Below, piece by piece: positions 8,567-13,707 of a DNA stretch of 64,000 bases (positions within the stretch are counted from its first letter, which is position 1; each line of letters starts with the position of its first letter). Source of the DNA: Rhizoctonia solani (taxonomy: Eukaryota; Basidiomycota; Agaricomycetes; Cantharellales; Ceratobasidiaceae); the NCBI RefSeq assembly GCF_016906535.1, contig NC_057373.1, positions 3,472,001 through 3,536,000 of the forward strand, written 5' to 3'. The notes beneath the pieces were generated by a model, which saw only the letters and a program-made list of their open reading frames with translations, was not told the origin of the DNA and did no database searches. A program made the translations under genes and the position numbers.

Positions 8567-11500
8567 CTACGAAAGTCTTAGCACAGTATTCCACCTCATT
8601 TCCTCTTTACCCCAGTGTTCATTCCCAGTAATGAAATCTGCACGCACCACCTTGCCACGTTGCCGTACTGCCAATTCGGTTTCAACCTTCAAGTAAATGC
8701 CTTCCATGGGACCCGGATAGAACCGAGACTCCTGTTGCACCATTTTTGCGAGGGTGTCATTCGCTGGAATGGCCTTATCGGTACATATAATAGGAGTGAG
8801 TTGTATATTCGTATTGATAAGGGTAGCCTCGAGAGCCCTACGTGAAGCAAACGTGTTCGTTGCCCGATCGAACAAGTCAAATGCGTAGAACAAATCGCCC
8901 AGTTTGGAATAAGAAATGGAATGCGTAGCGGCCATCCATTCTCCATATAGAATATATCGTTCCGGGAAGGCATCATCACGGTCCAGTATCGTGTAGAGGT
9001 CCTGGCGATGAGAAGAGATCCAAGAGTCAAGCTTTCTAAATTGAGGGTGATCATGGGAGTTGACATAATGAGAGCGATTTTGGACCCGCAATTCGCGTAA
9101 TGGTGAGAGCGAGAACCCCAAGTTAGCACCGTCAATTTTTTCAGTGATCACAACGAGTTCACCCGCGCGTATCGGAATGGGAGTGCTAGACGAGGACTTC
9201 TCCATAACATCGTCACTTGTAGCCGCTCCCAAGTCAAGTATATGCGCAGTTCGGGGAAATTTTAAGATTTCTGCCGGACAGACTATTTTGCAAAGGTCAA
9301 TAGCGGCCTCAAAGCTAGTTATGTGCGCAAAGCCTTGAAAACCTTCTAGTTTCCACTCGGAAGGAGGCTGAAATGATCGATTCATAGAAGTCACCGCAGT
9401 GAGGACCCGGGGGCCGGGTGTCAACGTAGGGTGGGACTCACGGTCTTGAGCCCTATCAATGCATAACTGAGGTTTATAATCGAACCAAACAACAATGGGG
9501 TGTTGGGCCCAGGAAGCAAGTTTGATCCACAGCCGACGCTCTTCGGAGGTAGGATTGCATCGGTCCAGAACAGCTCGGGAACCTGTCTGTCCCGCGCGGC
9601 TTATGTCAGTCTCGCAGGTAGCCCTACTCCTAGACTCATCTTGGGAAATAATTCGCCACAAACGACCTGGACTACGTGAACCTCCTGAGTCTTTCCCAAG
9701 AAATCCCCCACGTCGCACAATTTCCTGTGAGAACCAGGACTTTCCAGATCCTGGAAGGCCGCAAAGGACTAGCAAGTCCGTGCCTAAATTTACAGAACCT
9801 TCGATGAGAAGTGGGGTTGGATGCGGCTCTAGCGTACGTGGTAGAAGAAGTTTGTTTCGTTTCCAGAGTGCGCTAACCCAAGTTTCGACGAAACCTTCTT
9901 GATGGGCGGTCTCAATGCTACCTGACCTGATCAAACGAATCGCAGCAATCGCAGCGTTTGCTGACATCGCCGGAGTGGCGTCACTTGTTGCATTCATCGG
10001 GATAGGCCCGAAACCAAACGCTGCAAGGTAGCATGCGGCAACTGTACCTGCCCTACCCTTGCCACCACCACAGTGAATAAGGACAGGCGAACCGCCGGGC
10101 TCATGGATACGTCTCAGAATGATGTCCATTTGCTCTATAGTAGGTGGCTTGTAATTGGGGATTGGGACATATGTATGTCGAACGCGAGCAACAGCAACCT
10201 GGCGAAACCAGGTATCTGGCAATGGTGTCTCCTCCGTTAAAGTCAAAATATGACGAATGCCGATATTCGGAGAAGCTAGAGCAGCGATATCATCCACATT
10301 TCTTGGGGTAGACATCAAAGCCATGTAGAACGGTATTATCCAACCGAAGAACCTAGGCAGCCGATACCCGACATACGTAGAAATCGGTCCCTTAGCAGGA
10401 GAACGGGGAAACAACCCAAGATCCGGGGTTGTTGAGAGTGCGTGTTCACCTATGTCTAGACTCGCTACCACATTGACAATGTCATTGACGTGAGGGGAAG
10501 GTATATCCTTGGCATTATTCATGGATATGACAGTGCTCTTTGGTTTGTGCGGAACCAAAGTTAATACCCGGGTTCGTGAATTCGAAGTTCGCTTTGGCAA
10601 CTGACTCGAGTCAGACTCCTCGTAGATACGTTGCAGATATTGCTTCAGAGGTGCTGGCCAGGGCTGGCAAAGATAACTGCGCAACATAGAGTTCGCGGGT
10701 AGTTCATCAAATTCCCCGCTAGCTGTCTCGTCATTCAATAAACCAGTGATCATGAAAATGGTGCCCCAATCTGTAAATTCGGCAGATCGGCGGAGTTGTT
10801 TGAGGCAGTAAGACGAGATCCGATCAGTTTTGAGGTCCGTCTTTGTGGGATCACAAACGTATAAACTTAGGGCGCTACCAAAGCATAGCATAGCAAGCTT
10901 CCAATGATCGCGTTGAACAGATACGTCTCCCAGACAGACAAATCCTCGTGGGTTCGTTGGCTCAGACATAACCAAGAGTTCTGCGGCAGATTGCGCTAGG
11001 GTAAATTCGTACTGAGCAAGCAAACCGTGTATGAAAGAGGCAAGAAACTCTGTTTGAGAAGAGCTCGTCGAATCAATATTATCAAGCCCAAGGATAGTTT
11101 CGACAATCGCGAGTGATGGGTGGACCCAAATTACGCTACTTGGTCCCTGATCGGAGGGTCAATGGGATGTACCCTGACAGCTGTTGGATGGAGTACAAAA
11201 ACCTACCTTGTCTATCTCGTGTTCATCCACAGATGTCAAGGTAATGTGAAATTGTTTGGGTGGTAGGCCCAGCTGGGCGCGGAATCGTTGGCCTAAGGCC
11301 CACACGACAGTAACCCAATAAACTCCCTTTCGGTTAGTTCCGAGGCCATAAATGACTGGAGATGTGTTTGTTTTTTCTAAGGCGCTATTCAATTGATCTA
11401 GCTTAGGAATGGGGTTTGATTCGCCTAAAGCAAGTGTTCCATTGGAGCGTAGTGCTTGAAGTTCGTGTTTGCTCGCGACTGTTATATGATACTCGCCTCG

Positions 11501-11620
11501 CTTCAACTGTGGATTCGTGTCCCCGTTCTGATCTATCAACGATTGGGTATATTCATTGGCAATTTCGTCGATTTTGGGACCAAAAACCCCAAGGTAGCCT
11601 CGACACATGCGCGTATTCAT
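8567..11620 (-). CDS. multidomain RNA-repair enzyme: 2H phosphodiesterase - phosphatase - kinase - RNA ligase
   Basis: Two exons (11620-11207 and 11146-8567; GT-AG intron of 60 nt, phase 0) give about 997 residues. Residues 1-138 carry two H-x-T motifs (YHITV at 44-48, FHITL at 124-128), the signature of 2H cyclic phosphodiesterases. About 180-300 is helical and unrecognised. About 400-560 is a dual-specificity/tyrosine-phosphatase fold with HCGGGKGRAG (Cys at about 497). About 595-760 is a P-loop kinase with GLPGSGKS (about 601), LDRCNPTSEERR and RAQDRESHPTL, as in polynucleotide kinases. About 800-997 is a covalent nucleotidyltransferase RNA ligase: motif I EKIDG (Lys about 808), then YGEWM, MEGIYLK and KVVRADFI. 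Together these could heal and seal broken RNA: open a 2',3'-cyclic phosphate, remove phosphate, phosphorylate the 5'-OH and ligate. Domain identities are from motifs; the combined reaction is inference. Known fungal tRNA ligase Trl1 has another order (ligase-kinase-phosphodiesterase). Another upstream ATG (11666) is in a different frame. Confidence 0.88.
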
Positions 11621-12224: not shown

Positions 12225-13707
12225 TTAAACAGCAGTTTCTCCCAAGTTGAACGAGTGCTGAGCACCCAAGTGCTCCCGACGAGATTTACTCTTGGGGTCA
12301 AAGTAAGGCTTCTCGCCCTGGAGACAGGGTTATTGCTATGTTCTTTTTCGTATCCAAACTGTGTGCTTACCAATGAGACAACACGATCCCCAACACGCAG
12401 AACTTTTTCGTAATCGTAAGTAGCAGTATGGTAATTGCTACGGTTGTCCCAGATCGCAACATCGTTCTATAACATCGGATACAATTTAATATTCAAGGGA
12501 AGCCAAACTTCGATTCTGATGTACCTTGTTCCACTTGAACCGAACTTGTAGATCATGGTTTTGGTGAATCAAACTAAACAAGTAACTGTATGCATTGTCT
12601 TAGCTGCTATTCAGTCTATCACCAAGTGGATGACTTACTTCAGAATGAAATCAGACTCATCCTTAGTTACACCAATAATGCGTTTGGTGAATTCCGGGTT
12701 AACGTAAACGCTCTTCCATCCGGTCACTGGGTTGGTTCTATGCATAGACTTAGTAATTAGATGCCAAGCCCCGCAGTCGAACCCACCGAATAACAGGATG
12801 AACGGCTTCCAATGCATCTCCGAAATTCCCAGGAGATCCTCTGATCTGATCCCGAACTGTATACCCGAAGGCAATGGCAGCATCTCGGAAGAAGTGGGCT
12901 TCGTGTGCTGCAGTCAGAGTCTCCAGATACTTCGCAAACGAAGGGGATAAGCGGTCATAAACTTCATATCCACTAGTACAAATCGGATCAGCTAGGAAAT
13001 GGGGGGACAGGATCACGGAGACTCACGATGCCCAGAGAGTGTCACCTCCAGTCACAGATCCGTTGAACTTGGGGAGCTCACGTAGTTTGAGGATAGCATA
13101 GTCTGAGGGGATAGGCTCAAATGTGATATCCGAGTGCCATCCGCGGCTATAGATTTATGTCAAAGCCAGTGAGAATAATAGCAATAAAAAGCTTGATTGA
13201 AATAGATGTACCTAGCAAGGCGTGAAAAGTCGGGTCGAGTGTAAGATGCACGGCGTTCGCTAGAGATGACGCTGATTTCGTCCCCAAGTTCGGCATTGGT
13301 CTCCGTCAAGGGATGAACGTGGAGCTTCGAGGATTCAGGCTTTCCGGTAAGTTCACCCAATCGAGTGCCTAGTTGTTTTTGTTCCTCAATGGTGATGTCT
13401 TGGTCCCTGAAGAATGCGACACCACGCTCAGAAACTAACAGATATTAGCATGATTCAGTTGCGATTGAATGGATTAAAATGTACTCAGGACACCAAGGTC
13501 GCGGATCAATGTGTCAGAATTCTCCGCTTTTAAAAGCTGAGAGAGTTGAACGCTTTTCCCGAACTCGGTGCCAATGGTTGGAGTAACATCAATTTTGTCA
13601 AGCTTTTCAAGGGAACCAGTCGAACGAATAGGAACAGGGGATCCTGTGAGGGATAGCGATGCCAAAACTTGAGACACAGTCTTCCTTGTCTGGGTTTCAG
13701 TAGCCAT
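12225..13707 (-). CDS. TauD/TfdA-family Fe(II)/2-oxoglutarate dioxygenase
   Basis: Uses 2-oxoglutarate and O2 to oxidise a small substrate; family members act on taurine, other sulfonates or related acids, and the substrate here is unknown. Start ATG 13707 gives MATETQTRK; an in-frame ATG at 13764 would add 19 residues. Exons read ISERGVAFFRDQDIT (about 13430), the HxD iron motif in RGWHSDITFEPIP (about 13130), GGDTLWAS, then the helical block YDRLSPSFAKYLETLTAAHE, HPVIRW, VNPEFTKRIIGV, NDVAIWDNRSNYHTATYDYE with the distal His, and LRVGDRVVSL joined to GEKPYFDPKSKSRREHLG across an intron. The stop TAA is at 12227-12225. No targeting signal is evident. All iron ligands look present. Confidence 0.85.

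Follow-up and report, generated by a model that had tools for sequence, protein, structure and literature searches.

A predicted single-chain RNA healing-and-sealing protein of the 'Swiss Army Knife' kind in the fungus Rhizoctonia solani

The window analyzed here, a 64,000-nucleotide stretch of DNA, is a piece of contig C4 (NC_057373.1) of the Rhizoctonia solani genome, which comprises 40.7 Mb on 16 contigs. On its minus strand lies a gene for which six-frame reading and splice reconstruction gave two exons and a spliced product of 997 amino acids, with a 2H phosphodiesterase, a middle region of about 260 residues, a cysteine phosphatase, a P-loop kinase and an RNA ligase following each other from the N to the C terminus. 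The ATG starts at 11620 and the stop codon TAG occupies 8569-8567, exactly the ends given by an initial annotation made from the letters of the window. The features of the gene are as follows, with residue numbers referring to the spliced protein.

11207..11620, minus strand: exon 1, 138 codons, holding the entire 2H phosphoesterase domain
11219-11599, minus strand: 2H domain, Pfam stretch (His45 codon 11486-11488, His125 codon 11246-11248)
11147..11206, minus strand: inferred intron, 60 bases, phase 0, GTAGGT...TTGAC...TCAG; left unspliced, it leads to an in-frame stop
8567..11146, minus strand: exon 2, 859 codons plus TAG, holding the middle region, phosphatase, kinase and ligase
10358..11146, minus strand: middle region, residues 139-401, without family match
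9887..10357, minus strand: cysteine (DSP/PTP) phosphatase, residues 402-558 (Cys497 codon 10070-10072, Arg503 codon 10052-10054)
9362..9775, minus strand: P-loop 5'-polynucleotide-kinase-like domain, residues 596-733 (Lys607 codon 9740-9742)
8570..9286, minus strand: RNA ligase nucleotidyltransferase domain, residues 759-997 (Pfam stretch 803-972; Lys808 codon 9137-9139)

Before splicing, the six-frame reading showed two open stretches, of 157 codons (11632-11162) and 863 codons (11158-8570); when the 4.6-kb region was shuffled 200 times at the mononucleotide level, the longest stop-free run was 281 codons. The A of the branch-like TTGAC lies 12 bases from the intron end, and the remaining five AG acceptors up to 90 bases from the donor resulted in products of just 138-161 residues. 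Because of this one intron, we infer that both exons encode a single polypeptide.

Searching the segments with profiles recovered each of the four domains by its own Pfam model, in the order phosphodiesterase-phosphatase-kinase-ligase that the initial annotation had proposed. The 2H-SAK model (PF22547) matched at E 2.6e-23 and 83 bits (curated cut-off 27) over profile positions 1-124 of 124, and PTP-SAK (PF22784), the tyrosine-phosphatase-type domain described as an addition, at E 5.7e-52 and 176.3 bits (curated cut-off 27) over positions 1-153 of 153. Similarly, AAA_33 was found at E 1.1e-9 (1-143 of 143) and RNA_ligase (PF09414) at E 2.8e-29 (3-171 of 171), both sharing one open frame with PTP-SAK. 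All previously named motifs that we checked were located in the spliced protein where they had been placed: HITVAS at 45, HITLTS at 125, HCGGGKGRAG at 496, GLPGSGKS at 601 and DRCN at 666, followed by the ligase motifs EKIDG at 807, YGEWM at 872, MEGIYLK at 952 and KVVRADFI at 970. The approximate positions suggested for the catalytic cysteine (497) and lysine (808) thus turned out to be exact. Chance occurrence of the motifs was considered and ruled out by the Pfam profile E-values together with the 863-codon open run.

Judged by these profile matches, the protein is a well-preserved member of the known 'Swiss Army Knife' kind. The combination, which had been thought undescribed, is not new, because the 'Swiss Army Knife' models of Pfam for 2H and DSP-PTPase match the two diagnostic domains along their whole length. 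With the kind already named in Pfam, the interest lies in the predicted chemistry, not in the architecture. A survey of 'Swiss Army Knife' proteins is said to have been given by Burroughs and Aravind in 2016.

Comparison with solved structures was informative for two of the domains. The phosphatase, which carries the HCX5R signature (HCGGGKGR, 496-503), matched ten PDB sequences at E<=0.001, among them 25xa (E 5.7e-19) and human DUSP23 (4erc and 2img, E about 5e-14); four of the ten were compared by alignment. The kinase matched 9drz (E 7.4e-16) and 9d8a (E 3.3e-15), the latter named as a Rhizopus azygosporus kinase, and NCBIfam returned weak Pnkp (polynucleotide kinase) rows far under their cut-offs. 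For the 2H domain, every row of the sequence search against PDB had E >= 0.63. Matches in PHROGs were to phage RNA ligases and one kinase, and PADLOC returned a single row (E 0.044). The middle region (262 amino acids) gave zero Pfam rows at E<=10, its first 203 residues gave zero PDB sequence rows at E<=10, and NCBIfam offered a weak match to LcrH_SycD (E 0.093). Residues 204-237, approximately, fit a TPR-like pattern at 8 of 8 positions, equaled in 1 of 300 shuffles, the pattern having been shaped after the stretch was seen; this gives a hint of one TPR-like stretch within the region.

The fold of the ligase domain was predicted from a hand-picked alignment of 49 rows, that is the window ligase with those of 33 out of 80 bacterial and 15 out of 53 viral loci. 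The domain has the covalent-lysine motif and the other nucleotidyltransferase motifs: across the 49 sequences 17 columns are invariant, including E49, K50, D52 and G53 of the domain. In this model the ligase is Rnl2-like, with a fold nearest to the Naegleria ligase and Rnl2 and not to Trl1. A prediction for exon 2 made without an alignment had a mean predicted local distance difference test score (pLDDT) of 30.9 and was discarded.

Scanning prokaryotic genome contigs with the ligase alignment yielded at least 590 stretches, 551 relatives among these, from which we retained the 80 best loci; three plasmid loci brought the set to 83, or 82 distinct places, as L018 repeats L010. Among the matches listed, the closest prokaryotic ligases are 32-39% identical to the window ligase domain. 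We calculated a tree of 111 rows from 80 of the 82 distinct bacterial and 30 of the 53 viral loci, after dropping L018, rows longer than 420 residues and viral rows with E >1e-10. The window ligase joins the bacterial group there with an unstarred support of 89, at the end of a branch of 3.81; the program issued a warning about joining long branches, the window ligase is not safely placed and we draw no conclusion on its origin. Exon 2 gave zero relatives when compared with viral contigs and with prokaryotic genome contigs, as did the phosphatase and 2H domains against viral contigs. In tblastn, five phage records and 19 from plasmids matched exon 2, in each case with the best match confined to the ligase part.

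Elsewhere in the R. solani genome, a Trl1 on contig C6 has a PF09511 ligase, a kinase and a cyclic phosphodiesterase (CPD) in that order and matches fungal tRNA ligase models, bearing out the suggestion that the four-domain protein runs in the reverse order of Trl1. Because the genome holds this separate Trl1 of opposite order, the four-domain protein is a parallel enzyme beside the usual splicing ligase. A Tpt1-like gene lies on contig C2. Contig C13 carries on its minus strand (1324806-1325759, L149-L151) an RtcB-like gene made up of three exon-like matches, with profile positions 65-223 unmatched; RtcB is uncommon in fungi. Genome-wide, 2H-SAK and PF09414 have one match each, both at the gene described here. 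The PTP-SAK model is unspecific: besides this gene, which scores 180.6 bits, it matches four more places in the genome with 25 to 37.1 bits, and it also has matches in 8 of 14 control genomes. HAD_SAK_1 (PF10307), another domain of some 'Swiss Army Knife' proteins, had no match in the genome or in any of the control genomes.

As for the genes around it, the same-strand upstream neighbor (window positions of about 12228-12900, minus strand) looks like a TauD-type dioxygenase, a name given by eye without a search. Farther away, open frames read in the same way suggest household genes, a tyrosinase and a transporter among them, and no related cluster was noticed around the gene in this reading by eye, for which no search was made.

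The closest bacterial relatives of the ligase that were found lie mostly next to genes of a candidate defense pair, HEC-03. With queries from plasmids, labeled HEC-03A and HEC-03B by PADLOC, we found relatives at E<=1e-5 of both genes in 54 of the 83 loci (small protein in 59, ATPase in 67). All three genes are present in 53 of the 82 distinct loci, and in every one of these they share a strand, with the ATPase first, then the small protein and last the ligase:

L010:4224-6684, L011:4062-6690, L012:3072-5690 and 50 loci among L016-L095: HEC-03B-like ATPase, HEC-03A-like small protein and RNA ligase

On the ligases themselves PADLOC reported nothing for L010 and L011 and just a weak Cas11 row for L012. 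The HEC-03A-like small protein has six near-invariant acidic residues, conserved in 48 (D), 49 (D), 49 (E), 49 (D), 50 (D) and 50 (D) of 50 rows, and may be a PIN-like nuclease. PIN_3 matched 5 of 24 members, weakly (best E 0.0043); TRS130_4HB, an unrelated family, scored better (E 0.0013, 2 of 24 members), and the profile of the small protein against PDB returned zero PIN proteins, with a designed TIM barrel as top row (E 0.0004). The 24 rows are every second of 48 chosen for a DTN motif, so that the invariance of DTN is by choice; the 50-row count was made without that choice. A pairing of nuclease and ligase in this bacterial unit would suggest reversible RNA cutting. In a Verrucomicrobiales contig (L020:1453-4422), the gene immediately before that of a related RNA ligase encodes a 737-residue AAA_13 protein; we take AAA_13 to be the family of the anticodon nuclease PrrC.

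Among the 53 viral ligase loci, the HEC-03 pair occurs in three; weak matches to the kinase were found in six open frames (best E 3.1e-5) and to the phosphatase in a single one (E 0.012). The 2H-SAK model was matched in 1 of 377 bacterial genomes of one phylum (under the cut-off) and in 2 of 395 of another (at or above it), and in none of eight genomes carrying related ligases or of the 14 control genomes. One bacterial 2H-SAK frame (L153:859-1977, E 3e-25), without other domains, adjoins a polyprenyl-synthetase-like frame, so named by eye. The multidomain form was met in no other source, the collections searched being prokaryotic and viral, not fungal.

Taken together, the biochemical interpretation given in the initial annotation is the most likely one, and we think it probable that the gene encodes a 'Swiss Army Knife' enzyme that both heals and seals RNA ends within one chain. 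Its substrate would be RNA that a metal-independent ribonuclease has cut, leaving a 2',3'-cyclic phosphate end and a 5'-OH end. The 2H domain would convert the cyclic phosphate to a monophosphate, which the cysteine phosphatase would remove to leave a 2',3'-OH end, while the kinase would phosphorylate the 5'-OH; the ligase, charged with AMP on Lys808, would then join the 3'-OH and 5'-phosphate ends. The product would be free of a 2'-phosphate scar and Tpt1 would be unneeded, unlike for Trl1.

Several observations weigh against this proposal. On the IPD loop, 25xa, DUSP23 and 9e9l have an Asp where this phosphatase has Asn469 (codon 10154-10156), and its chemistry might accordingly be weak or altered. 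The modeled ligase is a nucleotidyltransferase domain alone, preceded by the kinase and with the chain ending in the catalytic domain, no search having been aimed at an extra domain; Rnl2 has an additional C-terminal domain and the Naegleria ligase an N-terminal OB domain. Moreover, in none of the 83 bacterial ligase loci did we find relatives of the 2H domain, phosphatase, kinase or middle region, either at E<=1e-2 or at E<=1, in flanks of up to 6 kb that were often shorter at contig ends; the bacterial context therefore gives no support for their coupling. The bacterial loci might lack phosphatase and kinase because PIN-like cuts, if the small protein does make them, could be sealed by the ligase without healing, as a PIN nuclease leaves 3'-OH and 5'-phosphate ends.

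Regarding the phosphatase, Glu550 (codon 9911-9913) of the GSIET motif is kept as in 25xa and DUSP23, the 9e9l alignment stopping short of this residue, and in human VHZ (DUSP23) this Glu is reportedly the main acid, with the Asp in reserve. Since Glu550 is retained and the corresponding Glu has this role in VHZ, the phosphatase may be active in a VHZ-like manner, or it may work on an easier leaving group, both suggestions resting on a single sequence. A fuller version of the proposal, which we put forward tentatively and would not bet on, is a phosphatase with the cysteine (tyrosine-phosphatase) fold that acts on RNA ends, using Glu550 in place of the usual Asp as acid and removing the 2'- or 3'-phosphate left by 2H, which would permit sealing without a Trl1-type 2'-phosphate scar by a ligase akin to the bacterial ligases beside candidate anti-phage genes.

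The loss of the general-acid Asp would also fit phosphoanhydride cleavage, and the phosphatase could then act on 5' ends, dephosphorylating 5'-triphosphate RNA for ligation in the manner of cysteine-type RNA 5'-triphosphatases while 2H alone handles the 3' end. In RNA triphosphatases of the baculovirus type, which have the same fold as cysteine phosphatases, the general acid is dispensable. We regard this as improbable: the 2H product would retain its phosphate and be unusable by an Rnl2-type ligase, Glu550 is kept and could serve as acid, and none of the ten PDB sequences matched at E<=0.001 is named as an RNA triphosphatase. Just as doubtful is a protein-directed or regulatory phosphatase alongside a 2H domain, kinase and ligase that act as in Trl1 and leave a 2'-phosphate junction for Tpt1. 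The likeness of the phosphatase to DUSP23 and the Tpt1-like gene in the genome would suit it; the predicted ligase fold, nearest to the Naegleria ligase and Rnl2, and the want of any PF09511 row speak against it.

Finally, fusion of the 2H domain to the rest depends on one intron, which begins just after a complete 2H domain, and a bacterial 2H-SAK frame without other domains exists, so the locus could be pictured as two adjoining genes: a free 2H protein, read in the frame of exon 1 and 155 amino acids long if it starts at TTG or 153 if it starts at ATG, and a protein with phosphatase, kinase and ligase whose start is the ATG at 10969 or a later one. The joining 60-base stretch, however, has donor, branch-like and acceptor signals and keeps phase 0, exon 2 has no ATG before its codon 60, and Pfam labels both the 2H and the phosphatase models 'Swiss Army Knife', all of which makes separate genes highly unlikely. 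We thus retain the single-chain repair enzyme as the preferred reading. To the initial annotation our analysis adds the middle region of about 260 residues, Asn469 and the bacterial ligase relatives beside candidate-defense genes. If the domains work as read, the fungus has, beside Trl1, a scarless one-chain RNA-repair enzyme, and it could then readily be tested whether RNA cut by ribotoxins is repaired in eukaryotic microbes and whether a tyrosine-phosphatase-type fold can heal RNA ends.

Like Trl1, the protein combines a 2H phosphodiesterase, a P-loop kinase and a covalent-lysine ligase within one chain; it differs in its reverse order, its PF09414 ligase (zero PF09511 rows at E<=1) and its extra phosphatase. 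The T4 system consists of T4 Pnkp, with a HAD-type phosphatase, plus T4 Rnl1 and Rnl2. Compared with it, the R. solani protein has everything in one chain, with 2H added and a cysteine phosphatase in place of the HAD-type one. The bacterial HEC-03-linked ligases, in contrast, are separate genes whose neighbors encode an ATPase and a small protein that may be PIN-like. DUSP23/VHZ, the nearest solved human relative of the phosphatase, has the GSIET motif in common with it, whereas the Asp of its IPD loop is Asn469 here and the R. solani domain is fused to RNA-repair domains. With the 'Swiss Army Knife' proteins, the protein has both the 2H-SAK and PTP-SAK models in common, each over the full profile length.
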